Origin: a virus
Direction: 5' to 3' (one strand)
IMG/VR virus record: IMGVR_UViG_3300044645_002685
Coordinates: 1 to 20,067 of that record
DNA length: 20,067 nt
The notes below the pieces were generated by a model that saw only the letters and a program-made list of their open reading frames with translations, was not told the origin of the DNA and did not search any database. The position numbers and the translations under genes are program-made. Below are positions 209 to 20,067 of this stretch, one piece after another. Each line of letters opens with the position of its first letter. Within the stretch, counting starts at the first letter, position 1.

Positions 209-556
209 TTACCCTCCCCACATCTGTGCAAGCGTCGGTCTTGTCGGTTTTATCTTTCTTCTTCTTTGTTCTGCTGCTAGCTGTCGACTCGTCAACCCTG
301 CCCAGACACCATGCATATCGGCAGGTGGAAACTCCAGTGCATACTCTAAACAGTGATTTCGAACTGGACATGCTTTACAGATGGCTCTAGCCTGTGCGAT
401 GTAGGTAATGTCCTTATGTTGTTTGGGAAACATAAGTTCTGTTTTTCCTTTGCATCCTGCTAGTTTAAACCAATCTTTTTTTTCTATATACAAAGACACA
501 GCAGGTACTGAATCTTTTTTATCCAATTCTTTTTGGGTAATTTTATTACTAGCCAC
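209..556 (-). CDS. WhiB-family iron-sulfur transcriptional regulator
   Basis: This 115-aa protein has the full WhiB signature: four cysteines at 35, 60, 63 and 69 (C-x24-C-x2-C-x5-C), expected to hold a 4Fe-4S cluster, then the GVWAG turn at 83-87 and a basic C-terminal tail (EQRRRKIK) for DNA contact. WhiB proteins bind the primary sigma factor and tune transcription in actinobacteria; phage copies such as that of mycobacteriophage TM4 interfere with host WhiB function. The start is GTG at 556, with AGGAG about 11 bases upstream. No other in-frame Met precedes the first Cys. It is divergent from the 77-aa gene at 666. This is the strongest evidence for an actinobacterial host. Confidence 0.93.
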   Translation of the reverse strand: MASNKITQKELDKKDSVPAVSLYIEKKDWFKLAGCKGKTELMFPKQHKDITYIAQARAICKACPVRNHCLEYALEFPPADMHGVWAGLTSRQLAAEQRRRKIKPTRPTLAQMWGG

Positions 557-1185: not shown

Positions 1186-1806
1186 TTATTTTGCTTTTTC
1201 TTGTCCCTGCACCAGCGTATGGTACGGCGCTCCCGTGTATGGGTCAAACTTAGCCGCAACTGAGATTGCTTTAATTGCCATTTTCCTTGCTACTGCCAGC
1301 GTGAGTTTGCCTTTTGGCTGTGCTGCATACAAGGCTCCCAGCGCGTACTGAGCACCAGTCCCTATGGCGAATATCCCACTTGAATCGGAAATCCATGAGT
1401 AGTCCCCATCAATTACATATATCGCCCCATTGATGGCCATGATGACCGTAGATGAGTGCTCGGCTATATGTGTCTTTGAGCCGTTGTCAGGTAGTGCGTA
1501 ACCATGTGATTCAAAGCATTCCCTTAAACTTGGGATAAATTTAGCTGTAACAAAGTGGTCCAGCTTCTTTCCTCTTAGTGTTGGGGTTGGGTTGGGAGGC
1601 GTGAATGCATGATGCAGGATATTGATTGCTCTTAAATCTCCGGCCGCGCCGAGCACGTACCGTCCATTTACACCTATCTTGCCGTTTGACTCCCTGAGAC
1701 TGACTATCTGTGATATCGGGCCCTCATCGCTATCAAGCGTTGATATACGCGAATCAGCCGTGACCACACAAAAGCCATCACCCTGAATCCCGATAATCGT
1801 TGTCAT
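1186..1806 (-). CDS. Proteasome beta / HslV-like Ntn-hydrolase
   Basis: This 206-aa protein begins Met-Thr-Thr-Ile. Met removal would expose an N-terminal Thr nucleophile as in HslV, with no propeptide. In mature numbering Asp17 and Arg19 fall exactly where 20S proteasome beta subunits have them (ADSR). A GAAGD segment matches the AGGxAD turn, IGTGAQYALGAL (residues 148-159) matches the SxGSGxxYAxG helix start, and DPYTG (188-192) matches the DxYSG motif holding Asp166 and Ser169. The catalytic Lys33 cannot be placed with certainty: the nearest Lys is residue 43. It would be expected to form a ring-shaped Thr protease or a derived hydrolase. It is last-but-one in an operon with a phosphoesterase and starts two bases after the preceding stop. 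Confidence 0.75.
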   Translation of the reverse strand: MTTIIGIQGDGFCVVTADSRISTLDSDEGPISQIVSLRESNGKIGVNGRYVLGAAGDLRAINILHHAFTPPNPTPTLRGKKLDHFVTAKFIPSLRECFESHGYALPDNGSKTHIAEHSSTVIMAINGAIYVIDGDYSWISDSSGIFAIGTGAQYALGALYAAQPKGKLTLAVARKMAIKAISVAAKFDPYTGAPYHTLVQGQEKAK

Positions 1807-1808
1807 TG

Positions 1809-2048
1809 CTAGTCGGAGCCTTCTTGCAAGTGTCGTGCTTCTTCTATTCTGTGTGCTTCTTCTAGAAGTACAGACATAGCTTCGTAAGGGTCGAACTCGC
1901 CCTTTGACTCATCGATGAATTCAATTGTTTTCTTGCTTAATCCATATAGCCATTCACCCTCTGGGTTTATGCCTACAACCTCAATTAAACCTACCTGTCT
2001 TAGGAAATCTAGGTCTTGGATGATTGCTTCATTCCATTCTTCACTCAT
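1809..2048 (-). CDS. Small winged-helix-like protein (79 aa)
   Basis: The start is ATG 2048, which overlaps the stop of the upstream phosphoesterase gene as ATGA (translational coupling). AGGGGAG lies about 13 bases upstream. Residues about 8-43 read helix (IIQDLDFLRQVG), then LIEVVGINPEGEWLYGLSKKTIEFID, a recognition-helix-then-hairpin pattern typical of a winged-helix fold. An acidic helical tail rich in Glu follows. It could be a DNA-binding or protein-binding adaptor for its operon partners. I do not recognise a named family, and the fold is inferred from the hydrophobic pattern only. Confidence 0.65.
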   Translation of the reverse strand: MSEEWNEAIIQDLDFLRQVGLIEVVGINPEGEWLYGLSKKTIEFIDESKGEFDPYEAMSVLLEEAHRIEEARHLQEGSD

Positions 2049-3262
2049 GCTTTGTATTCTTCTCCCCTGAATATTCCGTGACCGTTGTAAATCCACATTG
2101 GTTCGTAGAAGAACTCTTCTCCGCCAACGCCAACTGGCTGGTAGGTAACTACGCCGAGTCCCTGCTGCCAGTTCTCAGCACCCTGAAGCAATGGTCGGCC
2201 AAATTCATCTGAGCCAGACTTTACAGAAGGTACTGCTCCGTCAATCCTACAGAGACATCCAGGACTTGCGGCCATAATTGTTCTAGGGCCCTTGTCTGTT
2301 CTTCTAGTTCTGTAGGCGTACTCGTTCCTGTGGATATGTCCGTAGATGACTGATATACGCTCATTATCCAAATACTTCTTCGTGGTGGAGTTGTTTGAGA
2401 CGACCTTGTCGCCGTGGACAACCATCAGGTTCGTGTTGATATAGTGCGCAGACTCTGGGTATCCAGACAGGTAGTCAATGCCGAATTCATCCATTCTGCA
2501 GAGATATGGGACTGTCATCACTGGCCAGCCCTCTCTTAGCTCTCCTGGCTTAATCCCTCTAGTCAAACCAAACGCTGCTTCTGCGTTCATCTGTATATAT
2601 CTAGGTAGTCTTGCCTCATGGTTGCCGGCAATCCATGTGATTTTGGCTCTCGGTGCTGCTTCTCTGAGTTGGGCGCAGAGATAAGTCGCTCTATCTATCG
2701 CGGCTTGAACGAGCATCTTGAATGGTGCGGCGGTTAGATATTTGCCAAATTCTGCAAAATCCAGGTTGTCTCCAACCAGAACGACTTGGTCTGGGTTGGT
2801 TTTCTCAATAACTTTGAGGGCAACTGCCAAAGCTTGTTCGTCATGGATTGGCTCAATGTCAAAAGAATCAAGCGATTTACGGTAGTGACCTATCTGTATA
2901 TCAGGTACGATTACAGCGGTCTCCCAGCCATTTGGCTTGCCTACTTTTGTCTTTGTCTTTTGTATTTGTATTCTGGGTCCCTGAGTGACAACTGGCCACT
3001 TTGGTCCTGCTTCCCAAGTAGGGGAAATCTTTATTGCAGTTGATGTTGTAGCTTTTGGCTTTCCATCTTTATCTGTTGTTGTTCTGTGGTTAATACTAAT
3101 TGAAGCATCTGCGATGTCCTCAAGAGGGATGCCCTTTGCTTTAAGCACATCAGCAATATCTCCGAGAATCTTGTTCTTGGCAATACTCGAAGTGGCTTGA
3201 GCGTTCATGTTTCTCAACTTTGAACCAAGTCCGCTTTTTGGTGCATTTTTCTTACTTGCCAT
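2045..3262 (-). CDS. Calcineurin-like metallophosphoesterase
   Basis: This 405-aa protein carries the whole metallophosphoesterase motif set in order: PDIQ (120-123, with Gln in place of the usual His), GDNLD (164-168), GNHE (213-216), VHGD (282-285) and GHIH (308-311). These bind two metal ions and cleave phosphomonoesters or diesters. About 110 N-terminal residues precede the catalytic domain and include a Lys-rich disordered start and a short helical stretch, an arrangement I associate with actinophage homologues. The start ATG 3262 has AGGAG seven bases upstream and overlaps the preceding gene by 11 bases. The substrate is unknown; nucleic acid or a nucleotide is plausible. The DIQ variation may alter one metal site. 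Confidence 0.88.
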   Translation of the reverse strand: MASKKNAPKSGLGSKLRNMNAQATSSIAKNKILGDIADVLKAKGIPLEDIADASISINHRTTTDKDGKPKATTSTAIKISPTWEAGPKWPVVTQGPRIQIQKTKTKVGKPNGWETAVIVPDIQIGHYRKSLDSFDIEPIHDEQALAVALKVIEKTNPDQVVLVGDNLDFAEFGKYLTAAPFKMLVQAAIDRATYLCAQLREAAPRAKITWIAGNHEARLPRYIQMNAEAAFGLTRGIKPGELREGWPVMTVPYLCRMDEFGIDYLSGYPESAHYINTNLMVVHGDKVVSNNSTTKKYLDNERISVIYGHIHRNEYAYRTRRTDKGPRTIMAASPGCLCRIDGAVPSVKSGSDEFGRPLLQGAENWQQGLGVVTYQPVGVGGEEFFYEPMWIYNGHGIFRGEEYKA

Positions 3263-3536
3263 TCTTGACTCCTAGTCGCTGAGAGATACAGCAAGATTTT
3301 GCTGATTCTTGGTCTTTAAAACAGGTATTCCTTTTTTCACCAAGAAATTCCCTACCTATAGAAATCCCCTCGCTATTCAAGGCTCTAACTAATGACATGG
3401 TTGTAATATCACTTTTCATTGCCTGAATTAGTGCTTCTGCTGTGTCGTCATCAAGGCCGGCAATAATTCGTCCGAGCTTGCAGTCTTGCTTGGAATTCTG
3501 TGTTTCCAGAAGTTTCCCCAATGCGTCTTTTAACAT
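3252..3536 (-). CDS. Small HTH-like protein paired with the phosphoesterase (94 aa)
   Basis: I take ATG 3536 as the start because AGGTGG sits about six bases upstream; an in-frame GTG at 3545 would add three residues. The middle (residues about 17-70) reads CKLGRIIAGLDDDTAEALIQAM, then TTMSLVRALNSEGISIGREFLGEKRNTC. This matches the pattern of small phage proteins in which a helix-turn-helix unit ends in a basic His/Arg-Cys patch. Such proteins often sit next to a phage metallophosphoesterase, as here. It is the first gene of the minus-strand operon and overlaps the next gene by 11 bases. DNA binding is inferred, not shown. Confidence 0.7.
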   Translation of the reverse strand: MLKDALGKLLETQNSKQDCKLGRIIAGLDDDTAEALIQAMKSDITTMSLVRALNSEGISIGREFLGEKRNTCFKDQESAKSCCISQRLGVKNGK

Positions 3537-3545
3537 GAGTCCCAC

Positions 3546-3682: not shown

Positions 3683-4123
3683 ATGAAAAATCAAAACTCT
3701 GAAAAGATAAAAAAAGCCCTGGAATTAGCCATCCAGGAGAGCTCCTCAAATGGCCTTGATGCGGTGGAGAGAATACTCCAGACATTGGACCAGCAAAAAA
3801 TAGTCAGATATCACAACGATGGGGACGTTAATCTCTTGTCCACATCAGGCAAAGTTCTTGTGTCTTTGATAGAAGACTCAACGATGACAATCAGAGCTAT
3901 AGCTACATATCTGGGTTTGAGTGAAACAATGATTGATAAAACAGTGAAATCATTGATGAATGCAGGCCTTGTTACAAAGACAAAAGTCAACCGACAAAAT
4001 GTCTACAAATTAAATAAAAAAATAATCAATGAGCAGCTTGATATACGTCAGTTTCTTCGTGCTATCAGCCTATTAAATGAAGAAAATATTGACGATGAAA
4101 TTGGAAACTCTGACCCGTTCTAG
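3683..4123 (+). CDS. Winged-helix transcription regulator-like protein (146 aa)
   Basis: After a helical N-terminus of about 55 residues comes a clear winged-helix unit, about residues 56-112: GKVLVSLIEDSTMTIRAIATYLGLSETMIDKTVKSLMNAGLVTKTKVNRQNVYKL. It has the two-helix turn, the recognition helix (SETMIDKTVKSLMNAG) and the beta wing (VTKTKVNRQNVYKL) seen in MarR and ArsR relatives. An acidic C-terminal tail follows. ATG 3683 has no good Shine-Dalgarno. It is divergent from the phosphoesterase operon and precedes another small winged-helix-like gene by 12 bases, so it may be a local or middle-gene regulator. The target is unknown. Confidence 0.8.
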   Translation: MKNQNSEKIKKALELAIQESSSNGLDAVERILQTLDQQKIVRYHNDGDVNLLSTSGKVLVSLIEDSTMTIRAIATYLGLSETMIDKTVKSLMNAGLVTKTKVNRQNVYKLNKKIINEQLDIRQFLRAISLLNEENIDDEIGNSDPF

Positions 4124-5350: not shown

Positions 5351-5601
5351 TTTGCTCTACTTTTCTTGTTGTTTGGATTGAAATCAATTAATGACATTCT
5401 CGAGTGGTCGGCAATATGAGAATCAATCTTTGCTTCAACCACAGAAATATCTGCGTCGATATCGGCAATGTCTTCTTTTAGTGAATCCAGACTATCCTTA
5501 ACAAAACCGTGGTCTCTAACATTCTCACGCCGGCCCTTCTCAATCATGATGGCCAATACGCTGAATGCTCCGGTTACTGCCGCTGCCCAAACGATTTCCA
5601 C
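5347..5601 (-). CDS. Small membrane-anchored coiled-coil protein of the lysis cassette (84 aa)
   Basis: GTG at 5601 shares one base with the TAG stop of the endolysin, so translation is coupled. Residues about 2-20 (EIVWAAAVTGAFSVLAIMI) form one transmembrane helix, followed by EKGRRENVRDHG and a heptad-like helix (LDSLKEDIADIDADISVVEAKIDSHI). Small proteins of this design directly after the endolysin are common in actinophages and are usually called holin-like or accessory lysis membrane proteins. It could also act as a spanin-like or tail-linked factor. The coiled coil suggests it oligomerises. Confidence 0.7.
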   Translation of the reverse strand: MEIVWAAAVTGAFSVLAIMIEKGRRENVRDHGFVKDSLDSLKEDIADIDADISVVEAKIDSHIADHSRMSLIDFNPNNKKSRAK

Positions 5602-6371
5602 TAGAGGCCAAGCAATTCTTTTACTTTTGGCCCGGCGACAGAATCGGCAGGAAGCTTGTTCGCCACTTTGAATGCCTTTATCGCAGCGTCAGTTGCGGCG
5701 TCTTTTTGGCCATTGATTGCCCCTTTATAGAAACCCTTAGCTTTAAGCGCCTCTTGGAGCTTGCTGATGTCATTGCCGCCTGCTGCAGGTGCTACGACTG
5801 GCGCTCCGCCTGCTGCTGGTGCGGTAACTCCGTTGGCGTCCATCCATGCCTTTACAGAGGCTGGAACATTGTCTCCGGAAACGTAACGAAGATGCCATGG
5901 CTCCGATGGAACAACTTCCCACGAGAAACCAAACTCTTTTACGTTTGCAATCAGCCAATTGAGACGCTTTGGCTCTGATGCTGAGTGAACGTCAACGGCC
6001 AAGCCGAGGTTATGCTGCGATTTACCCGGTGTGGCAAGCATCGCCATGCCCTTCTTGAGATACCAAGTCTTGCCTTCAAATGTCTTAGTGCTGGTTCCGT
6101 CCACTTTGTCAAGTGTGTAGCGGCTCAGAAATCCCTTTTTTTGACTTTCGTAATCGCGATATGTATCGCCGCTGGAAGTCGGTTTTAGTTCAACGCCTTC
6201 AGCTTTTGCTTTTTCGACCATTGCTGTCCATGCGGCTGCGGCAATCCAATGCATCTTCCCACCACCAGGAACAGCCTTAAGAAGGTTTGCAGGTAGCTTG
6301 CCTGGCTCAATTCCTTTAAGGTCTTTTGGAAGAACTACGGGGACGATGTAGTCCCAAGCAAGCTTGCTCAT
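5601..6371 (-). CDS. Endolysin: M15-type D-Ala-D-Ala/L-Ala-D-Glu peptidase with PG-binding domain
   Basis: This 256-aa enzyme would cut peptide stems of host peptidoglycan at lysis. The M15/VanY motifs are clear: SGDTYRDYESQ (67-77), SQHNLGLAVDVHS (118-130) with zinc ligands His120 and Asp127, and EPWH (157-160) giving the catalytic Glu157 and third ligand His160. An Ala/Pro/Gly linker (about 181-200) leads to a PG_binding_1 domain (about 201-256: ISKLQEALKAKGFYKGAING, then AAIKAFKVANKLP). There is no signal peptide, so it needs a holin. I use ATG 6371, with AAAAGAG six bases upstream; a TTG at 6377 is the alternative. The membrane protein that follows is coupled to its stop. Confidence 0.9.
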   Translation of the reverse strand: MSKLAWDYIVPVVLPKDLKGIEPGKLPANLLKAVPGGGKMHWIAAAAWTAMVEKAKAEGVELKPTSSGDTYRDYESQKKGFLSRYTLDKVDGTSTKTFEGKTWYLKKGMAMLATPGKSQHNLGLAVDVHSASEPKRLNWLIANVKEFGFSWEVVPSEPWHLRYVSGDNVPASVKAWMDANGVTAPAAGGAPVVAPAAGGNDISKLQEALKAKGFYKGAINGQKDAATDAAIKAFKVANKLPADSVAGPKVKELLGL

Positions 6372-6438
6372 TGTCAACTCTTTTCGTAAAGTAAAGAAAC
6401 CACCGGATGGCGTTACTAGATTTTACAATAAGAAACCC

Positions 6439-7351: not shown

Positions 7352-10300
7352 TTATTCGCTGTCTGGCTCTTTCATGTGAAGGTACATCGCGCATGCAAAT
7401 GCGATTGAAGTACCCCACAGTGCAACCTGTTGGGTGAATCCGGAGAGCGTGAAGTACATAACCACAGCTCCAGCAAGAGTGAATCCAGAGGCCATCACTC
7501 CATAAACAAACTTCTTAGTGAAATTCTTCCAGTCCATAACTCTCACTCCATCCTCGTATTTGTAAATAGATATCCGCTTAATCCATTCAGGACCTTCGCC
7601 CTCAATGGCTCCACCTTCCTCGGCTTCCTCATCTTCCCTGCGAACCGCAACGTCTTGTCTTGGGCCAGATGGGTTAGATGGGCTAGAGCCTGGGGTTGGT
7701 ATTCCACCAGCAGCAGCGGCTAGAGCCACAGTACTGGTCACCAAGTTTACCGCAATTACGCTTCTTCTTGTACCAACATCTATGGAAGAACCCAATGCGG
7801 TATACGTATCAAACACTCCGGCGAATACGTTGATTTCTTCTTCAAATGATTCCTTAACATCGGTTGGCGCCTCGGTGAGTGCTTCTGAAATCGCGGCACC
7901 AGCTTCTTCTGAAACCTCAGCAACAACGATTGCGTTAAACACTGCGGATGCTTGTTCGCCGTCAATGCTTTCAAGAACCTTGGAGCTTGTTGCAAGTTCG
8001 GTTGCTTGTCCAGACTCGATGCCACCCTCTTGCTCAATTACCAACGTAACGACTTGTCCAACCTGCTCGCTCGTAATTGTGTCGGATTCCAACACATCCA
8101 CGATTACTCCGACCGATTCAGCGTCTAGTTCATTACCCAAGACAGCGGTGAAGGTTTCAATCAAAACCTCGTTGCTTACTTCTTCGTCAAAGACCGCACC
8201 AAGAACAGTGTTCAACAACTCTGAGGTGAGTTCTTCCTCCAACACATCAACGATGAGGTCAATGGTTTCTGCGTCGGAAAGGTCACTGTCAAACACGCTG
8301 TCAAAGATTGCTTCTGTTTCTGACGCGCTTAGGTTTGTTTCAAGCAAGTCTCCAAGTACGGTCATAGTGTCCGCAACCGATATATCTTCGTCAAATACGG
8401 CTGCCATAACTGTGTCTAGGTCGCCAGAACTAAGCGGACCATCAAAGATTGACACCAAAGCCGACACCATATTCTCAGCAGAAGTATCTTCTGAGAACGC
8501 TGAATCCAAAACTGCCGTCAACTGTGCGCTAGTGATGTCTGCATCCAGCATCGTCGTCAGTGCTTCGGTGAATACATCTGCCGAAACATCTTCGGTAAAG
8601 ACGGCTTCTAGAACATTGTCAAACTGGGTGTTGGTAAGTTCTGCACCAAGGAGTGTGTCAAGAACAGCGCCAACCTCGTCAGCCTCAATATCGGCAGTGA
8701 ATGTATTTTCAAGAATATTGTCCAATATGACTGTCGTGATTGGCTCGTTGTCTTCTATGTCTGTGACGGTATAATCATCTGGTGGAATTATTATTACTAC
8801 CGTTTCGGTTTCTGTTGGGTCTATTCCAATTGGTTCTGAGTATTCTGGAATTGTTTCTGTTGGCAGTTCGATTCCAGTTCCTGTTTCTACGGGAAGCGGC
8901 ACCGTTGTGGATTCTGTTTCAGGCTCTGGGTATTGCGGGAGTGGCACTGTTGTACCGTATGGGGGAGTCACGACGACAGGAGCGACAGTCGTACTGGTCG
9001 TAGTTGTAGTAGTAGATGAAGTGGGTGTCGGGTCAAGAACAGTTGCATCAACGGTTACTTCAGGTCCATAGGTGCAACTACCAGTTCCAACCCCAGCACA
9101 CCCAGCCGTCATTGCTTTGATGCCGAAACGAACGGGTCCATATCCTGTTGTGACAGGATTACTGCCAGAGAACATCCCGGTGCTCAACGAGTAGTTGGTT
9201 CCTTGATTGGTCCAAACTCCCCAACCACCTGATTGTGCTCCACCAATTACGGTGAGGTCGTAGAAACTAACTGAGTAACCGTAGATAGAAGCATTACTTG
9301 CCGCCGACGCATCCCAATCAAGGTCAACACTTCCATCTGTGTTCGCAACGGCAGTCAGGTTTGTAACTGGATTAAGGTACGCCGCAGTAATCGTGTTGTT
9401 GGACTCGACATATCCAGAGCCTGAGAAATTGTTTGTGTTTTGCGCAGTAGTGCCAAATGTGTTTCCACTGGCTGTAGAGAACGAGTTCGCACTTGCTCCG
9501 TTGTATAACGAAGAGCCGTTATTCCAATTGTTTGCAAATTGAATAGCGGTGGTGTTGCCATTGAATGTATTACCTGAAACCATTTGATTGCCAGCGCCAA
9601 CCGTCCAAGAGGTGGGAATCCATGATGAGAAAGACACGCCAACACCGTTTGAAGTAAATGTCGAATTTAGAACTTGCTGACGGTTGAGCCCTCCTAAATA
9701 TGCACCAAACTGTGTGTTTCCTGTGAACTGGCTGTTATTTATTTTGACAAAGCGCTCGGTACGAATACCATAAGTATTTGATGTAAATGTAGAGCCATTG
9801 ACATAAATACGATTTGAGTAATCAGTATCCGTAAGGCTTAAGGCCGACGGGGTACCACCATGGTCAGAGGTAATTGCATAACCATTATTGGTGAATTGTG
9901 AATCATTGAATGTGGTAACTCCACCGCCGCCTTGGTAGAAAGCCCACGATGAATGATTGGAAATTTTTATCCGATTGAACGTCATTGTTCCGGAGGCGTT
10001 GTAAATAAGACCACCGTTCCATGACACATTTTTACCTTGCTTGAATGTCATGTCTTCAATAACAATTGTTCGTGCACCACTGTTGTAAATTGCTCGCCAC
10101 AAATTGTTTCCATCAATAATCGTCGTAGCCATACCTGTTCCGGTAATTGTTACGTCATCAGTAATCGCGGGCAGGTCAGAAGTAAGGGTGATTGTTCCAG
10201 TGTTTCCTGGAGCAAAGGTAATCGTGTTAATAGTGGCTGAAGCGTTTGCTGTAGTGATGGCCCAACGTAAAGAACCAGAGTCAGAGGTATCTGAGAGATT

Positions 10301-11692
10301 TTCAACAATGACAGATGTTAGGGCTGGAACCGTGATTGACGCAGCCGAGTTTGCCGTTAGTGAACCAATTGAGTTTGTTTTGGTTACGGCTACTCGTATT
10401 TGTTTCGCAACATCACCCGAACCAATTGTGTATGTTGAGGATGTTGCGCCAGATATATTTGTCCATGTGCACGAAGAAGGGGTGCAGGATTGCCACTGAT
10501 AGGTTGTCGCAGTTACAGCAGAGCCACCGTCACCCCAGGTTCCATCGACTGCGGTCAGAGTTTCTCCATACTCAATAGTTCCAGACATTGATGTTCCACC
10601 AGATGTTGTGGGAGCAGTGGCCCCTGCAAGCAAAGCAAACGACCGACTTACCGTGGATGCTGATACGTATGAGTTATTAGAAGAACTATTTGCGGAGATA
10701 GTGCAAGTTCCTGTTTGGTTAGCCAACACCGTCACCGTTGCAGTTGAAGTTCCACCACTATCAGTTGACGAGCCAACGGTGCATTTGCCTGTAGTGCTGG
10801 ATGTAAAAGTAACCGACAGTCCAGAAGTGGCAGTGGCTGAGACAGTAAATGTCTGGTTTGACGAAGAGGCAACTATGTCGGCAGGCTGAGCGAAGGTAAT
10901 AGTGTTTGCGCTGGCTACAGATATTGCTGAGTCAATATACATTGATGCACCAAGGACTTGACCGCCCGTTGCGTCATAGGAACCATTAACGAACCTAAAT
11001 CTGTAATAACCAGTAGATGGGACTATGCCACTAGACGTAACCCAACCTTGGTTTTGCCCGCGTCCATATGAAACCAAAGTTGAAGTAGCACTAGAGCCAT
11101 AGTCGTATGAGTTCCCACTTGCAGAAACCTCAACCAAGTACCCGTATGCTTCGTAGTCGTCACCACCACCAGCGGCGGCCCAGTCAAAAGAAATTGATTG
11201 ATTTGCCGTGGCAGGAAACGGCTCGGTCCATATCTCTGGCCCAAACGCCGAACCGTATGTTCCATGACTATCACAAGTATTGCCATAGGAAATAGTGCCA
11301 GAAGAGAAGAGACGAATTACTCCACTACGTCCACCATATTCCTGTCCTGTAGATGTGGAGTAAGACAGGTTCTGGGTGGTCGCTTCTTGGCCTTCGTACA
11401 ACTGCTGTTCTCGCGTGTAGTCCTTGTCGGTTACATAGGAGTAGGAACTATTGGATGCGGAGTCGGTGCCAGTCATCGTGTATGGACCAATCCCCTGCTT
11501 GCCCAGAACCTTGCATTGGGTTCGGCTTGCCAACGAACCTAGGGTTACTTTTGCCGCCGTAGTTGACTCAAAAACAGGCGACAATGCCTGAACTGGCGAA
11601 GAAAAGCCAAAAATCGATACCAGTAAAAGGAATACCGAAGGAACAGCCATGATTAATGCGGGCTTATTAACGCGGCGACGCCGTACGAACAT
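7352..11692 (-). CDS. Giant secreted, membrane-anchored multidomain surface protein (1446 aa)
   Basis: A positively charged signal peptide (RRRR, then LIMAVPSVFLLLVSIFGF) has a likely cleavage after VQA36. A jelly-roll-like domain follows (about 37-255, with SFDWAAAGGGDDYEAYGYLVEV), then two Ig-like domains (about 260-356 and 358-455) and a right-handed beta-helix typical of adhesins or polysaccharide binding (about 460-775). Next come a fibronectin-III-like domain (about 775-880), a Thr/Pro-rich linker (about 885-985), six exact-length 34-residue helical repeats (1004-1207), an acidic segment, and two C-terminal transmembrane helices (about 1395-1440). AAGGAGG lies four bases before ATG 11692. 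It may be a surface-displayed adhesin or fibre. A signal peptide plus membrane tail is unusual for a virion protein and may instead mark the infected cell. Confidence 0.85.
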   Translation of the reverse strand: MFVRRRRVNKPALIMAVPSVFLLLVSIFGFSSPVQALSPVFESTTAAKVTLGSLASRTQCKVLGKQGIGPYTMTGTDSASNSSYSYVTDKDYTREQQLYEGQEATTQNLSYSTSTGQEYGGRSGVIRLFSSGTISYGNTCDSHGTYGSAFGPEIWTEPFPATANQSISFDWAAAGGGDDYEAYGYLVEVSASGNSYDYGSSATSTLVSYGRGQNQGWVTSSGIVPSTGYYRFRFVNGSYDATGGQVLGASMYIDSAISVASANTITFAQPADIVASSSNQTFTVSATATSGLSVTFTSSTTGKCTVGSSTDSGGTSTATVTVLANQTGTCTISANSSSNNSYVSASTVSRSFALLAGATAPTTSGGTSMSGTIEYGETLTAVDGTWGDGGSAVTATTYQWQSCTPSSCTWTNISGATSSTYTIGSGDVAKQIRVAVTKTNSIGSLTANSAASITVPALTSVIVENLSDTSDSGSLRWAITTANASATINTITFAPGNTGTITLTSDLPAITDDVTITGTGMATTIIDGNNLWRAIYNSGARTIVIEDMTFKQGKNVSWNGGLIYNASGTMTFNRIKISNHSSWAFYQGGGGVTTFNDSQFTNNGYAITSDHGGTPSALSLTDTDYSNRIYVNGSTFTSNTYGIRTERFVKINNSQFTGNTQFGAYLGGLNRQQVLNSTFTSNGVGVSFSSWIPTSWTVGAGNQMVSGNTFNGNTTAIQFANNWNNGSSLYNGASANSFSTASGNTFGTTAQNTNNFSGSGYVESNNTITAAYLNPVTNLTAVANTDGSVDLDWDASAASNASIYGYSVSFYDLTVIGGAQSGGWGVWTNQGTNYSLSTGMFSGSNPVTTGYGPVRFGIKAMTAGCAGVGTGSCTYGPEVTVDATVLDPTPTSSTTTTTTSTTVAPVVVTPPYGTTVPLPQYPEPETESTTVPLPVETGTGIELPTETIPEYSEPIGIDPTETETVVIIIPPDDYTVTDIEDNEPITTVILDNILENTFTADIEADEVGAVLDTLLGAELTNTQFDNVLEAVFTEDVSADVFTEALTTMLDADITSAQLTAVLDSAFSEDTSAENMVSALVSIFDGPLSSGDLDTVMAAVFDEDISVADTMTVLGDLLETNLSASETEAIFDSVFDSDLSDAETIDLIVDVLEEELTSELLNTVLGAVFDEEVSNEVLIETFTAVLGNELDAESVGVIVDVLESDTITSEQVGQVVTLVIEQEGGIESGQATELATSSKVLESIDGEQASAVFNAIVVAEVSEEAGAAISEALTEAPTDVKESFEEEINVFAGVFDTYTALGSSIDVGTRRSVIAVNLVTSTVALAAAAGGIPTPGSSPSNPSGPRQDVAVRREDEEAEEGGAIEGEGPEWIKRISIYKYEDGVRVMDWKNFTKKFVYGVMASGFTLAGAVVMYFTLSGFTQQVALWGTSIAFACAMYLHMKEPDSE
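8072..8683 (-). repeat. Six tandem 102-base units encoding 34-residue helical repeats
   Basis: Six consecutive units, each exactly 34 residues, share the pattern xxxxxxxLxxLLxxxLTSxxLxxVLxxVFxEDxS, for example the ends AVFTEDVS, SAFSEDTS, AVFDEDIS, SVFDSDLS and AVFDEEVS. Each unit is made of two similar 17-residue halves, so it probably folds as a two-helix hairpin and the array as an acidic alpha-solenoid. The DNA copies have diverged strongly, which points to old duplication under selection for length. Confidence 0.85.
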
Positions 11693-12656: not shown

Positions 12657-13931
12657 CTAAATATCTCTATCTGCTATCTTTCTTTTTTCTACTGGCTCAA
12701 GTCTTCCGTGATGCTTTGCTTCTCCGTCTTTTCTAACCCATGTCATACCATAGGTTGATTCAAGGTTCTCTGTTCCTTCTCTGCGCAACAGTCTCTCCGC
12801 CATTGACTGGAATGTTGGGTCATCGCTGAGATTCAGGTAAGAGTTGTGTGACCAAGGAAGGTCGTAGAAGGCTGGAGCATTGACCAAAAGAGCTCCCGCA
12901 GTCGTCCAATGCTCTTCTATTCTTGGATTTTCATGAACAATTGGACCCGATAGGCAATATGCAGGAACATCTATTCCTACAAGTGGCCTGTTCACTTCAA
13001 GCATTTTTTCAATAGCTACTGAATCAAGTGACATGTCCGAATCTATATACAGAACTGCTGAGTAATTTGCAACTCCATAGTTCAATTCGGTGCAGTCTTC
13101 ACCCCAATGGTGACCACTTGTTATTCTGTTTCTTTGAGCAAATTCCCTAATTAGGTTTCTTCCAGTCTCTATGCGAATCCATCTATTGCCGGAATCAACT
13201 TTTTTTTGCATGTCATTTATCGAATATGTCCAGTAATCTCCATTGACTTCTTTTAGTGCTTCAATCACTTCATGGAAAGGTTCTATTCCTCGGTTGTCTA
13301 ATTCAAATGAAGCAAACCATTTAACGTTTGGGAACTTCCTACAAATCTCTGCTCTATCGGCCATCCAGTTCATGTGCTCTTTGGCATCACACTTCCATGC
13401 AACCAATGGAGTACCGATAACAAAATGTTTTTCGTAATCAATTGGCTTCAGTACTGGTGATTCGGAAAGTTTGTATTTAGGTTTGTTTAACTCTGCAACA
13501 AAATCTGAACAAACACCGGAGTATTGAATTTTCCAGTCAGAATCCATCTCCCACCAAGATGTTTCTGGAAGCACCTTTATGCATTTCTTTGAACTTGCTT
13601 TTTTCCCAGGAAATGCCCAAACATAACCCCTGCTGGTAATCGTATAGTCGTCCGTGTTATGGAAGAAACAATGCAAATCATTTTGCATGGAAAAAGCTAA
13701 TGCTTCTGCATTTTTGCAATGAATCCATATTTGGTCAGTTCTATCAATGAGCCATTGATGTGGAACTGAATATTGCGGACCGTCATGCCCTAGGGAAGTT
13801 CCAAATTCATTAACCCACAAGTCAACCTCAACATCAAACCCACGCTCAATTGCTTCTTCTATGTATTTTGGATTATTTTCAAGTTCTGGTTTGGGTCCGT
13901 GCAGGTTGCCCCTGTGAGATATATAAATCAT
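12657..13931 (-). CDS. GDPD-like phosphodiesterase domain fused to a GT-A glycosyltransferase
   Basis: I take ATG 13931, which overlaps the methyltransferase stop as ATGA, giving 424 aa. Residues 1-145 follow the glycerophosphodiester phosphodiesterase plan: SHRGN (His6, Arg7), ENNP, DVEVD (Glu35, Asp37), LGHD (His49) and HCKN (Lys73). Residues about 168-410 resemble a GT-A sugar transferase: GTPLVAWKCD start, ETGRNLIREFAQRN, and a DSD metal motif (297-299, LYIDSDMS), followed by TAGALLVNAPAFYD. The pair suggests making or editing a glycan with a phosphodiester link such as glycerol-phosphate; this is inference. It is the last gene of the glycan operon and ends two bases from the convergent peroxidase-like gene. 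Confidence 0.75.
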   Translation of the reverse strand: MIYISHRGNLHGPKPELENNPKYIEEAIERGFDVEVDLWVNEFGTSLGHDGPQYSVPHQWLIDRTDQIWIHCKNAEALAFSMQNDLHCFFHNTDDYTITSRGYVWAFPGKKASSKKCIKVLPETSWWEMDSDWKIQYSGVCSDFVAELNKPKYKLSESPVLKPIDYEKHFVIGTPLVAWKCDAKEHMNWMADRAEICRKFPNVKWFASFELDNRGIEPFHEVIEALKEVNGDYWTYSINDMQKKVDSGNRWIRIETGRNLIREFAQRNRITSGHHWGEDCTELNYGVANYSAVLYIDSDMSLDSVAIEKMLEVNRPLVGIDVPAYCLSGPIVHENPRIEEHWTTAGALLVNAPAFYDLPWSHNSYLNLSDDPTFQSMAERLLRREGTENLESTYGMTWVRKDGEAKHHGRLEPVEKRKIADRDI

Positions 13932-14635
13932 TTTTCCACCTGAACCCATATCCAGTTTTTGTGATTATCACCAGGTCCTGTGTCACGTATGTCTGATTTA
14001 TAGTTTGTAAAACCAATTTCCCCTATTAGGTCGTCAACAAGTGATTGCTCATCCTTCACGCTTACGTCAGAGTGTCCGTTTGTGCTTCCGGCGTCATAGT
14101 TGTTGTCGTAGTAATCAGCAGTTGGAATTTCACCCTTTCCGCCGTATCCCATCTGGAAACACAACTTGCCGCCCGGCTTTAGAACTCTGAATATGTCCTT
14201 CAAGATGTTGAATCTAATTTCGTGGACACAAATGTGTTGGAAACATATAACTGCGAATACAACATCGTATGATTCATCAGCAATAGCTGAAAGATTATCT
14301 CCACTCGTAACATATAAGTGTGGCTCTGAAATATTGTTTGCTTTTGTATTGATTCTGGCTTTTTCTATATTTACATCAGATATATCAATTCCGTCAACTC
14401 GAGCAAACCTGTCTGCAAACTTGACCAAGTTTCGTCCAGGGCCACATCCGTACTCAAGAGCGATAAGACCATTAGTGTCAAAGTCCTTGAATAAAAAATT
14501 GTCATAATCCGACCAGTTGTTATGAGCGTCATACGAGCCGACAACTGGGTCCCTAAAATCCAGCGACCACTTCGATGCATATTCGTCGTAATAAGAATTC
14601 TGCATATCTAGATAATCTTTTTTGTTCTTGCTCAT
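13928..14635 (-). CDS. Class I SAM-dependent methyltransferase
   Basis: The start ATG 14635 overlaps the upstream stop as ATGA, giving 235 aa; a longer frame to 14686 is not needed. Motif I is LEYGCGPGRNL (60-70), the acidic residue binding the SAM ribose is Asp84 in VDGIDIS, and motif IV is YDVVFAVICFQHI, with the DIFRVLKPGGKLCFQ post-motif that is classic for this fold. The acceptor is not evident. Within a glycosyltransferase operon, O-methylation of a sugar is the simplest reading, as in rhamnan or capsule caps. It ends with an ATGA overlap into the GDPD-GT gene. Confidence 0.9.
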   Translation of the reverse strand: MSKNKKDYLDMQNSYYDEYASKWSLDFRDPVVGSYDAHNNWSDYDNFLFKDFDTNGLIALEYGCGPGRNLVKFADRFARVDGIDISDVNIEKARINTKANNISEPHLYVTSGDNLSAIADESYDVVFAVICFQHICVHEIRFNILKDIFRVLKPGGKLCFQMGYGGKGEIPTADYYDNNYDAGSTNGHSDVSVKDEQSLVDDLIGEIGFTNYKSDIRDTGPGDNHKNWIWVQVEK

Positions 14636-16005
14636 TTGTTGTTCTCCAAGTAGTAATTCAGGTCTTCCGGCGTTCCAATTCCCCACATTTTAGGGACTTC
14701 TTTAATTCGAATCTTTTTGCCATCCTGAATGGCTTCATTAAATACTGGGCAGACATAAAACTCATTATTGGTTCTAATGTCTTTTTCAATCATTTGATTT
14801 GCATATTTGACATAATCAGAACCATGTTTCCAGTAGTAAATACCTACAGTTGCATTATCTGAAATTGGGTTTTTTTCTGCAACTTCATCCACCAGGCCAT
14901 CATCCCCTAGCTTCGCGTATGACCACTTTGGGTGGGTGGCCTTGAATGTGAGGATTCCACCATCAACGCCTTCCGCACCAAATGCGTACAAACACTCGTT
15001 GCTATTCCAATCGACTATCTGGTCAGAGTTGGCCATCAGTAATGGTTCATCGTTATCTATTAGTCCAGACGCAAGTAGGGTCGTGCATGCGGCGCCCTCT
15101 GTCATTCCGTCAACCAGAACGATGTCACACCCTGGCTTGATGAGTCCTAAAACCTGTTTCAAGTTGTATTTCTCGTAGTGCTCTTTTTGTACAAGAAAAA
15201 TAAAATGAGCGTCTATGTTTAGATTCTCGACGACTACCTGAATCATTGGTTTACCGTTGACTTCAATTAGAGGCTTCGGAAATGTGTAGCCAGCTTGCGC
15301 AAATCTAGAGCCGGCTCCTGCCATTGGTATCAAAACATTCATTTTTTCATTCCTCCAAGCAACAGGCTTTTTGCCTCTATTTTCTATTTCATCAACAAAA
15401 CGCATTAACCGTTGTTTATTAAGGTCTGCGGCATTTTTTATTGCATGAAGGTTTGCGCCAGAACTAAGCGCACCTTCTCTACCGATATGAGAATCCTCAA
15501 TAATTATAGTATTTGCAGGACTTGCATCAAGGGAGACCATGCATTGCCAGTACATTTCTGGGTGTGGCTTGTGATTTCTCACGTCCTCGTTGCTCATTAT
15601 GTAACTGACGTATTTGAGAACCCCAATTGCATCCAGGGCGGTTATGACCGTGTCTCTTATGGCGTTTGAGGCAACAGCAATACGCCAGCCCTTTTCCTTC
15701 AGGGTCTGCATTATGTCAATTGCTACGTAGTTCTTAGGGAAATCTGAAAGTATTTTTAGAGTGGCTTTTTGTTTGTCTTCCCAGATTTGTTGATGTTTTG
15801 ATTCTGGAAGGCCTTTTTCTTCGGTCAACATCTTTAGCTTTGTAGTTGTCCCAAGGCCGTCATATTTGGACAGGTGTTCTTCTTGCGAAATTACGTATTT
15901 AACATCAACTCTGCTTAGGGCAATATTCAGTGAATCATAATGAACGTCGCGTGACTCAATCAAAACCCCATCAAGGTCAAAGATGACAAGAAAGTTACTT
16001 TTCAT
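14632..16005 (-). CDS. HAD phosphatase fused to a sugar-phosphate nucleotidyltransferase
   Basis: From ATG 16005 (457 aa; the first 11 bases overlap the previous gene) residues 1-205 are a HAD phosphatase of the beta-phosphoglucomutase type: FDLDGV (Asp10, Asp12), ASNA (112-115), HKPHPEMY with Lys146, and IIEDSHIG with Glu170-Asp171. Residues 222-457 are a sugar nucleotidyltransferase: MNVLIPMAGAGSRF (222-235), FPKPLIEVNGKPMI with Lys244, MANSDQIVDW, and a C-terminal WGIGTPEDL. Together they could convert a sugar-phosphate precursor into an NDP-sugar for the neighbouring glycosyltransferases. The junction is unusual: GGAGG and ATG 15342 would give a stand-alone 236-aa nucleotidyltransferase, and the fusion rests on a run of six A. 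Confidence 0.88.
   Translation of the reverse strand: MKSNFLVIFDLDGVLIESRDVHYDSLNIALSRVDVKYVISQEEHLSKYDGLGTTTKLKMLTEEKGLPESKHQQIWEDKQKATLKILSDFPKNYVAIDIMQTLKEKGWRIAVASNAIRDTVITALDAIGVLKYVSYIMSNEDVRNHKPHPEMYWQCMVSLDASPANTIIIEDSHIGREGALSSGANLHAIKNAADLNKQRLMRFVDEIENRGKKPVAWRNEKMNVLIPMAGAGSRFAQAGYTFPKPLIEVNGKPMIQVVVENLNIDAHFIFLVQKEHYEKYNLKQVLGLIKPGCDIVLVDGMTEGAACTTLLASGLIDNDEPLLMANSDQIVDWNSNECLYAFGAEGVDGGILTFKATHPKWSYAKLGDDGLVDEVAEKNPISDNATVGIYYWKHGSDYVKYANQMIEKDIRTNNEFYVCPVFNEAIQDGKKIRIKEVPKMWGIGTPEDLNYYLENNK
15342..15356 (-). promoter_or_regulatory. Internal Shine-Dalgarno and ATG at the domain junction
   Basis: On the minus strand GGAGG (15356-15352) lies nine bases before ATG 15342, the Met that begins the nucleotidyltransferase domain. 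A six-A run (15347-15342) sits between them. This permits separate translation of the second domain. Confidence 0.55.
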
Positions 16006-16651
16006 TTGGATTAGGCCCTGCGTGTCTATGCCACTTGTTGTGACGGACAATGCTTTTCCCATTGCACTTCATTACGTATTTATTCCGAACGCGCATGGAC
16101 CACTCGACGTCCTCTTCCTCGTTCCACCCACGCGATTCGTCAAGTGGCTCTTCAACCATCACGTGTTTCTTAAGCATAAAGAAACCGCCGGATATATACA
16201 TGTATTGAGTTTGTGTCCAGTCGTTGTATTCAAGCGACCAGGCGCGCCCGTGCCCTGGCTTATCCCATAGCGACCAATCCATTGGGTTTCTTTCCCCAGT
16301 AATCAAATATTGAGGGCATGAACATATTTCCCAGTCTTCCCCAAATGACTTAAATTCTTCATACCATTTCGAGTCGAATATGTGGTAGTCGTGCATCATT
16401 ACTATATTTTCGTATTTTGCATTCTGGGCAAGAATGTTTTTTTTGCGAGTAATCCATCGCGGCTTTATTGACTCATCAAAGTCAATCTTTACAATGTCAT
16501 CCCCTTCGATTCCAGATGAATCCCCTCCACCGACAAAAAGTATTTCGTATTCGGGAATTTTTAAATCACGGATGCTTTTTATAATTTCATCTAATCGATT
16601 TTTATCTTCGTATACAGTAATTATTCCAAATGTAAAAGAAATGTCTTTCAT
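15995..16651 (-). CDS. GT-A (family 2-like) glycosyltransferase, short
   Basis: This 218-aa protein opens FTFGIITVYEDKNRLDEIIKSI, the nucleotide-sugar-binding start of GT2-like enzymes. VGGGDSSG follows, then VMMHDYH (84-90) at the position of the DxD metal motif, YISGGFFMLKK, and WNEEEDVEWSMRVR, a typical acceptor-side ED motif. It lacks the long C-terminal extensions or membrane helices of processive GT2 enzymes, so a soluble single-sugar transferase is likely. AGGTG lies four bases before ATG 16651. It follows the GT-B gene by seven bases and overlaps the HAD-nucleotidyltransferase gene. Confidence 0.82.
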   Translation of the reverse strand: MKDISFTFGIITVYEDKNRLDEIIKSIRDLKIPEYEILFVGGGDSSGIEGDDIVKIDFDESIKPRWITRKKNILAQNAKYENIVMMHDYHIFDSKWYEEFKSFGEDWEICSCPQYLITGERNPMDWSLWDKPGHGRAWSLEYNDWTQTQYMYISGGFFMLKKHVMVEEPLDESRGWNEEEDVEWSMRVRNKYVMKCNGKSIVRHNKWHRHAGPNPNEK

Positions 16652-16658
16652 GAATCAC

Positions 16659-17750
16659 CTAAATTTTTTCCAAGATGACGCGCATTGTTGCATCCCAGTC
16701 ATCCCCTCTGGCGTTCATGTCAAATTTTTTTAACAATTCTCTGTTTTCATTCATTTCATCAATGCGCATTTGATGATTCATTAATTCGTCTAGGTGGTAA
16801 ACCCATTCTTCATCAGTTTTTGCCATTCTTCCAATTCCCTGACTGACCAGGAATTCGTATTCTGGAGAGTATGAGGTTATAAATGGGACCCCTGCGGCAG
16901 CGTATTCGAGTCCTTTTATGAATGATTTTGCGTGATTGAACTGTATGTTGTTTAGTGGAATTGTCCCGATATCCATATTGGAAAAAAGGCGTGGGTATGC
17001 CGATATTGGCGCCATTGGTGAATGTGTAAATCTTGTTTTATCAATCTTTAGTAAGTCGTGTACTGATGGCGCAGATGGTGAGTGTCCAGAATGATGGAAC
17101 TTTGTATTTCGTGATTTTAAATAATCATCCATGAAACCAGAAAGCTGCTCTAAGTCATTGGAGCGCCAGTGGGTAGCACCAACCCATCCAATATTTGATT
17201 TTTTAAGGTATCTAACTGAGCGTTTATTATACCTATCTGAATCGATTCCATTTCTTACCATAAAAACGTTATCGCGTTTTTTTGCGTAGTAATCAAATAG
17301 AAATGGCGTTGATGTAATAACGGCATCCGCCTGCATTATTATTTGTGCGTAAATATCCCTGTTGTTGTCCGGATTCTTTTTGGGGTCTGTTGCTTGAAAT
17401 GCTCTATTTGTCTCGGCAAGACCATCAAACCAGTCGTCGACATCAACTACCAATTTTTGCCCCATTGCTTGAGCGAGCGGCATTTTTTCCAACACTTCTC
17501 GTTGCATGAGTAGTTTAAAAACGATTATGTCCCAACCATGAACAGACCTACCGTCTGACATCAACATCCCAAATCCTTTATCTGCGCCATAACCAGGGAA
17601 TCCGACAGCAGTAAACCACCCACGCTTGTTCAGTTCATTGGAAGGAAGGGTGCATCTGTAGTAACAGCATCCATTTGGCTCAAGTGGCTCCGTCCCCCAT
17701 GCCCAGTCATGAGTCATGAAGCCAATTGTTGGTTTGTGTTGCTTCTTCAT
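16659..17750 (-). CDS. GT-B (family 4-like) glycosyltransferase
   Basis: This 363-aa protein is the first gene of the glycan operon. The C-terminal half has IGWVGATHWRSNDLEQL, then FIKGLEYAAAGVPFITSYSPEYEFL, the sugar-nucleotide-binding segment with two Glu residues typical of GT4 enzymes. Earlier come KLVVDVDDWFDGL (about 111-123) and ADAVITSTPFL, which mark the inter-domain region and the start of the second Rossmann fold. No membrane segment is seen. Its start at ATG 17750 lies behind a TATAAG -10-like box 13 bases upstream. It probably transfers one sugar, either to a virion protein or to a growing glycan; the acceptor cannot be told. Confidence 0.88.
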   Translation of the reverse strand: MKKQHKPTIGFMTHDWAWGTEPLEPNGCCYYRCTLPSNELNKRGWFTAVGFPGYGADKGFGMLMSDGRSVHGWDIIVFKLLMQREVLEKMPLAQAMGQKLVVDVDDWFDGLAETNRAFQATDPKKNPDNNRDIYAQIIMQADAVITSTPFLFDYYAKKRDNVFMVRNGIDSDRYNKRSVRYLKKSNIGWVGATHWRSNDLEQLSGFMDDYLKSRNTKFHHSGHSPSAPSVHDLLKIDKTRFTHSPMAPISAYPRLFSNMDIGTIPLNNIQFNHAKSFIKGLEYAAAGVPFITSYSPEYEFLVSQGIGRMAKTDEEWVYHLDELMNHQMRIDEMNENRELLKKFDMNARGDDWDATMRVILEKI

Positions 17751-19441: not shown

Positions 19442-20067
19442 ATGGATGAACAAGAGATAATTAGTTTTTCGGAGCCATTCCGAGGGACGTCGTCGTTCTA
19501 TGTAGGATTTAAAACAGTATCGGAGACTGCCTCCGCTACAGCAAGTGGTTCTTCGTCCGTATCGCAACTTCATACGGCAATACGAACTGCTTCAGCATCT
19601 GCTACATCTGGCCACGCCATTGTCTCAGTACATACTTCTCCACGAGGGGCCACTGGCTCTGGTTCTGCAACCGCAGGAGACCAGGCAATTGGTCTCCATA
19701 CAGCTCCAAGACAAGCATCTGCTTCTGCTAGCGGAGATGGCAGTGTTGTTGTTCTACACACAGCTCCACGAAGTGCAACAGGAAATGGAACTGGCTCTTC
19801 AAGCAATCTAAGTGAAGTAATAACCTTCCTGAGAGCTGCAAGTGCATCGGGCGGTGCAACAGCTGGAGATAGTGCAATTGGTCTTCATACTGCACCGAGA
19901 GGTGCAACTGGTTCTGGCCAGTCAAGCGAATCATCAACAAGAGTTAGAACGGCTGTTGTTTCGGCTACCGGTTCAGCCATAAGCGGCTCAACTGCAGTTG
20001 GCCTGCACACCGCACCAAGAACAGCAACTGCAGATGGACAGTCAAGTGAATCTGCAACGCGACTCAT
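19442..20067 (+). CDS. Repeat-rich tail fibre protein, N-terminal part (partial)
   Basis: The frame opens at ATG 19442 behind AGGGGAG and stays open to the window edge (208 residues seen). After about 43 residues (FSEPFRGTSSFYVGFK) comes a chain of about 20-22-residue repeats with core LHTAPRxATGxG, ending in AIGL or TRL. Cores start near residues 44, 64, 86, 106, 131 (degenerate), 149, 169 (degenerate) and 189. The composition is almost wholly Ser, Thr, Ala and Gly, as in fibrous beta shafts and in proteins that receive O-linked sugars. Its place after three tail-type genes supports a fibre. The tip and any receptor domain lie outside the window. Confidence 0.75.
   Translation, partial: MDEQEIISFSEPFRGTSSFYVGFKTVSETASATASGSSSVSQLHTAIRTASASATSGHAIVSVHTSPRGATGSGSATAGDQAIGLHTAPRQASASASGDGSVVVLHTAPRSATGNGTGSSSNLSEVITFLRAASASGGATAGDSAIGLHTAPRGATGSGQSSESSTRVRTAVVSATGSAISGSTAVGLHTAPRTATADGQSSESATRL
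19571..20067 (+). repeat. HTAPR-type tandem repeats in the fibre gene
   Basis: About eight imperfect 60-66-base units encode the core L/V-HTAPR-x-ATGxG. The closest pair at DNA level is the units around 19885 and 20005, which share CACCxAGA and ATGGxCAGTCAAGxGAATC-like strings. The array continues beyond the window. Confidence 0.7.

Follow-up and report, generated by a model that had tools for sequence, protein, structure and literature searches.

Members of the proteasome-like superfamily are already known in phages. PPH, AAH and CPH are group-I proteasome homologues present in phages, for which no genomic context suggestive of function was reported and no actinobacteria-specific phage with AAH was found (Fuchs et al. 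2021, PMC8665760). Group I is defined by a compact, propeptide-less architecture without the extra C-terminal S12/H5, and PPH comprises about 140 residues and lacks the second helix H2 (PMC8665760). The described systems that bear most closely on the present locus are the beta-proteobacterial proteasome homologue BPH (5OVS/5OVU), which is likewise devoid of a propeptide and for which a function without an ATPase has been proposed, the protease HslV (ClpQ) and the actinobacterial 20S beta subunit PrcB. On the phage side, PHROG 1040 is annotated as 'peptidase HslV family', and a protein of the lake phage DSL-LC01 (Actinomycetia phage, OQ999401.1) as 'ATP-dependent protease subunit'.

The DNA analysed here, termed the window, is a stretch of 20,067 nt from a viral contig (IMG/VR record IMGVR_UViG_3300044645_002685). 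It encodes a proteasome/HslV-like N-terminal threonine hydrolase (NTN), a genuine and intact phage proteasome homologue that adds a member from likely actinophages to this superfamily. The gene and its conserved neighbourhood are:

209–556, minus strand: WhiB-like transcription factor, encoded 3' of NTN (same strand) and retaining its four Cys
1186–1806, minus strand: NTN, 206 aa, ATG start (ORF list, Pfam, PHROG, AlphaFold/Foldseek, alignments)
1809–2048, minus strand: short ORF, 79 aa from the ATG at 2048 (the ORF list gives 95 aa, starting at a GTG further upstream)
2045–3262, minus strand: calcineurin-like metallophosphoesterase, 405 aa (Pfam/PHROG profiles, motif alignment)
3252–3545, minus strand: 97-aa ORF overlapping the phosphoesterase start, with a homologue in 53 loci
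3683–4123, plus strand: winged-HTH (TrmB-like) regulator, divergent and part of the same conserved block

An earlier sequence-only reading had recognised a phage-borne, proteasome-fold N-terminal-Thr hydrolase in a phosphoesterase operon and had proposed a profile search, a structure prediction and a survey of phosphoesterase co-occurrence; this identification is supported. The Pfam Proteasome profile (PF00227) matches NTN at E=1e-7 with 32.2 bits, exceeding the gathering cut-off of 22.4, and phrog_1040 spans residues 1-204 and thus the full length (E=1e-24), both far beyond chance. AlphaFold2 was used with a 33-sequence alignment to model the protein (pLDDT 82, pTM 0.79). The model adopts the Ntn fold, and Foldseek ranks BPH (5ovs, E=1.6e-11, TM 0.69) before HslV and 20S beta, with a probability of 1.00 for all three. 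BPH 5OVS is also the top natural solved relative in the PDB sequence search; alphaRep designed proteins appearing in the PDB profile search were dismissed, as no domain was significant alone. In a library of viral structures, 33 proteins match the NTN fold at E<=0.001, and the fold is therefore common among phages.

NTN reaches 25.4 bits with the HslV equivalog TIGR03692 (cut-off 157.75), and among the 20S beta equivalog models only the archaeal one was matched, at 32 against the 224 bits needed. Sequence identity amounts to ~21% with BPH, which is bacterial and not phage-borne, and to ~20% with HslV. PrcB shares the fold and the catalytic residues, but NTN has no propeptide, a compact C-terminus and a weaker similarity to PrcB than to BPH and HslV. 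Unlike PPH, NTN has 206 residues and model helices at 58-67 and 79-100, with one strand following the last helix. NTN is accordingly compact, propeptide-less and without the extra C-terminal S12/H5 (definition in PMC8665760). It is a compact group-I (BPH/HslV-like) member of the wider superfamily that lies outside HslV, PrcB and PPH by the tests made, which covered these three families. A second proteasome-family gene that could encode an alpha-subunit partner was not found in these phages, and double proteasome matches in two of them (G009, G012) proved to be pieces of the NTN frame rather than two genes.

The catalytic residues of the proteasome family can be mapped onto NTN as Thr2 (Thr1), Asp18 (Asp17), Lys43 (Lys33), Asp188 (Asp166) and Thr191 (Ser169), with Gly56 in the oxyanion loop. 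The Thr-Thr pair after Met, Asp17 and the DPYTG motif noticed earlier are all present, the last (188-192) matching D166-x-x-S169-G170. Thr1, Asp17, the Lys33 equivalent, Asp188 and the GAAGD oxyanion loop do not vary among the 73 distinct core homologues, while position 191 is Thr and in one case Ser; the Thr1/Asp17/Lys set is found in every distant phage homologue aligned. The Arg that had been placed in proteasome register is indeed located at mature position 19 (residue 20), but it is not an invariant feature (53 R, 20 Q), and HslV carries the Gln also seen in some phage members. The catalytic lysine, in turn, had been described as not obvious owing to a register error: it had been sought at mature position 33, which is Ile. 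In the hmmsearch alignment, the 'SKV' of NTN pairs with the 'RKV' of ClpQ/HslV that contains Lys33, followed by a two-residue gap. Because of this pairing and the two-residue-shorter hairpin, Lys43 (mature 42) is the Lys33 equivalent, and the idea of a lost or substituted Lys33 was rejected. MAFFT shifts the HslV row by one residue at this point, placing Arg instead of the neighbouring Lys, which reflects an alignment ambiguity. Since approximately residues 21-40 and the pore loop are modelled at low confidence, the geometry of the lysine is based on alignment and conservation.

In 77 of 78 distinct homologues the start codon immediately precedes the Thr pair (65 ATG, 7 GTG, 5 TTG), and in NTN itself (MTT) it is placed directly at Thr1, leaving no propeptide. 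Comparison with seven relatives yielded dN values of 0.06-0.32 and dS values of at least 1.6 or saturated, indicating strong purifying selection. With all catalytic positions invariant and the gene under such selection, the suggestion of a derived or inactive ring subunit was rejected. Given the invariant catalytic set, the start at Thr and the purifying selection, NTN is instead predicted to be active and to be processed by Met removal alone. Methionine aminopeptidase prefers small second residues, Thr included, and from this known preference we infer that the host enzyme takes off Met1.

The NTN gene is tightly embedded in its operon. The ATG of the short ORF overlaps the phosphoesterase stop codon by 4 nt (ATGA), and the short ORF ends 2 nt before the NTN start. 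The phosphoesterase is located directly upstream of NTN in 39/55 distinct loci, with the short ORF in between in 29; where the short ORF was undetected, the phosphoesterase usually abuts NTN, and in most loci the gene ends overlap or are spaced by a few nucleotides. This conserved overlapping arrangement across loci shows that the phosphoesterase operon is real, beyond chance. The metal motifs of the phosphoesterase (D121xQ, GDN164-166, GNHE213-216, H283 and GHxH308-311) are invariant in 36 sequences. The short ORF is poorly conserved in sequence and obtained no family match in the profile search. A WhiB gene follows NTN in 35/55 distinct loci. The order of the conserved block is endolysin, small ORFs, winged-HTH regulator, 97-aa ORF, phosphoesterase, short ORF, NTN and WhiB. 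Defence-system models gave no match for either NTN or the phosphoesterase.

A scan of viral contigs identified 168 stretches encoding an NTN relative, 80 of which were kept. The corresponding scan of genome contigs, using two peptide patterns that reach close relatives only, found the same phage block on one MAG contig (L087). This contig is binned as 'Gammaproteobacteria' and carries the complete block including WhiB; it is most simply a misbinned phage contig. A host gene carried by chance was rejected as an explanation, since close relatives are found almost solely in viral contigs, with L087 as the sole MAG case in this two-pattern scan. The nearest named-phage relative is the DSL-LC01 protein (45% identity), which has the same catalytic set and is directly followed by WhiB, but lacks an adjoining phosphoesterase and has a longer basic C-terminal tail. 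Weaker relatives are encoded by Arthrobacter, Microbacterium, Psychrobacter, Moorella and Vibrio phages as well as by rhizobial and Streptomyces plasmids. WhiB is an actinophage marker, and its presence in the block together with the lake phage record makes an actinobacterial host likely; the gene belongs to a tailed phage whose host is probably a lake actinobacterium.

A search for unfoldases in eight large contigs (80-172 kb) from the window's lineage gave no Clp/PAN/HslU-type match above cut-off, AAA_2 included; nor was an HslU found to accompany this HslV-like protein. The absence is provisional because viral contigs may be incomplete. At a distance of ~10 kb from NTN, the opposite strand carries a CobS-like AAA_5 gene beside a VWA-like (CobT-like) gene, and the remaining AAA matches in this lineage are equal to it in size and place. 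This AAA_5 gene was rejected as an unfoldase partner: in each of the three contigs that were read it adjoins the VWA-like gene, and it is not of Clp/PAN type. The pair, with a VWA-like protein of 500 aa, is located at L114:8843-11112 (minus strand) and also present in L118 and L120.

That NTN has this fold, retains its catalytic set, lacks a propeptide, evolves under purifying selection and is tightly coupled to the phosphoesterase gene is established or strongly supported. Taken as a whole, NTN is reasonably likely to be a catalytically competent, compact group-I proteasome homologue of a tailed phage with a probable actinobacterial host, coupled to a phosphoesterase. After exposure of Thr1 by the host methionine aminopeptidase, the subunits might form a single or double ring, whose enclosed Thr1 sites could degrade unfolded or delivered proteins. 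As no unfoldase was found in the large contigs, NTN would either be fed by a host ATPase or need none, the latter as proposed for BPH. Our best guess at the role is a ring-forming threonine peptidase that, together with the co-translated phosphoesterase, would serve the takeover of the host early on or the quality control of proteins.

A second conserved context of NTN is found in sister phages. Their contigs (up to ~216 kb) have no phosphoesterase and carry a colinear gene set at L125:8847-21543 and in loci L126-L155, in the order ThiF/E1-like, Ubl-like, AAA, two E2-motif proteins, SSB, uracil-DNA glycosylase (UDG), KTSC-like ORF, NTN and zinc ribbon; the SSB, UDG and KTSC-like genes were assigned by reading the sequence. 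The ThiF/E1-like gene matches PF00899 (8e-13), and the AAA ATPase is nearest to CDC48 (E=1e-37) and PAN (7e-36), while defence-system models relate it to IetA-type AAA. One small protein, whose EFHRR(A/S)GEKG end is nearly invariant, reads like a beta-grasp Ubl; it gave no family match in the profile search. In the two E2-motif proteins, an Asn and a Cys spaced by eight positions (N-x7-C) are invariant, as in E2 enzymes. A search of open-access papers found no earlier report of a phage E1/Ubl/PAN-like cassette.

These neighbours raise the idea that NTN is the protease chamber of a phage targeted-degradation pathway comprising the E1-like, Ubl-like and candidate E2 proteins and a PAN/CDC48-like unfoldase, which would have been rewired to the phosphoesterase in the window's lineage. 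This proposal is improbable on the present evidence, and the stricter version, in which the chamber is fed by the PAN/CDC48-type ATPase and marked by the Ubl cassette, with the chamber retained in the window's lineage and the cassette absent from it, is a little less probable still. NTN is present in 22/31 sister loci, absent in 7 and cut off by the contig end in 2 (22/29 where the block end is covered), colinear with and downstream of the E1/Ubl/PAN-like genes. In a quick tree with long distant branches, the sister NTNs belong to the same well-supported family as the window NTN and are interleaved with the phosphoesterase-linked ones. However, the ATPase lies ~8 kb from NTN, with the unrelated SSB and UDG genes in between, and neither a ThiF nor a PAN-like gene was seen in the window's own lineage. 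PF14460 (Prok-E2_D) matches 7/23 candidate E2 members weakly (best E 0.014), and an E2 fold for the cassette proteins was not confirmed, as a model of middling confidence (pLDDT 69) matched none in the PDB. With the Ubl lacking a family match, the Prok-E2_D matches weak and the E2 fold unmatched, a functional tie of NTN to these genes would be a suggestive lead rather than a result. Both contexts, phosphoesterase plus WhiB and the E1/Ubl/PAN-like set, provide concrete gene pairs for studying possible viral control over protein turnover.

Ntn hydrolases cover a wide chemistry, and NTN may act as an amidase or ligase, by analogy with connectase or other enzymes of this class. A non-proteolytic amidase or ligase acting with the phosphoesterase on a small-molecule or peptide substrate would fit the tight coupling of the two genes. 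The nearest solved relatives are all proteasome-type peptidases, however, and the proteasome-type Thr1/Asp17/Lys33/Asp166/Ser169 set is retained, so that such a function has a low probability next to the ring-forming threonine peptidase favoured above.

Two further explanations are highly unlikely. Some actinobacteria possess a 20S proteasome, and NTN, which is of the same fold family, might, as a divergent subunit, become part of the host 20S (PrcB) particle, cap it or poison it. The related earlier suggestion that the phage copy could replace, poison or redirect host protein turnover finds no support with regard to the 20S proteasome: NTN resembles BPH and HslV more than 20S beta in both fold and sequence, carries no propeptide, and has relatives in phages that infect Vibrio, Psychrobacter and further hosts in which a 20S proteasome is not expected. 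Maturation proteases are common among phages, but a capsid- or tail-maturation role for NTN is just as hard to sustain, as the gene belongs to a regulatory/lysis-side block away from portal or capsid genes and an S78-type prohead protease domain is present elsewhere in the same phages (8/12 records), an argument that is weaker for the cassette-lineage records, which have no S78 match.

The S78-type domain is located inside open frames of ~870 to 4000 aa (L190, L191 and others), which suggests very large fused structural proteins. In a PF03420 search, no control matched. Beyond the NTN block, the window encodes a VanY/M15 peptidase with a peptidoglycan-binding domain at 5601-6377 (minus strand), a probable endolysin. 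At 7352-11692 (minus strand) it encodes a 1446-aa protein with a signal-like start, a Thr-rich linker, hydrophobic C-terminal segments and many near-repeats of the 'LDxxLxxxLTxxxLxxVLxxVF' type; no Pfam family matched it above cut-off, and a homologue adjoins the endolysin in ~31 loci. Judged by sequence reading alone, the region 12657-17750 (minus strand) contains a run of ORFs resembling a glycosyltransferase, a methyltransferase and a HAD + nucleotidyltransferase fusion and is probably a glycan-modification island. At the contig end, after head-/tail-like genes, 19442-20065 (plus strand) encodes Ala/Ser-rich repeats around LHTAPR.
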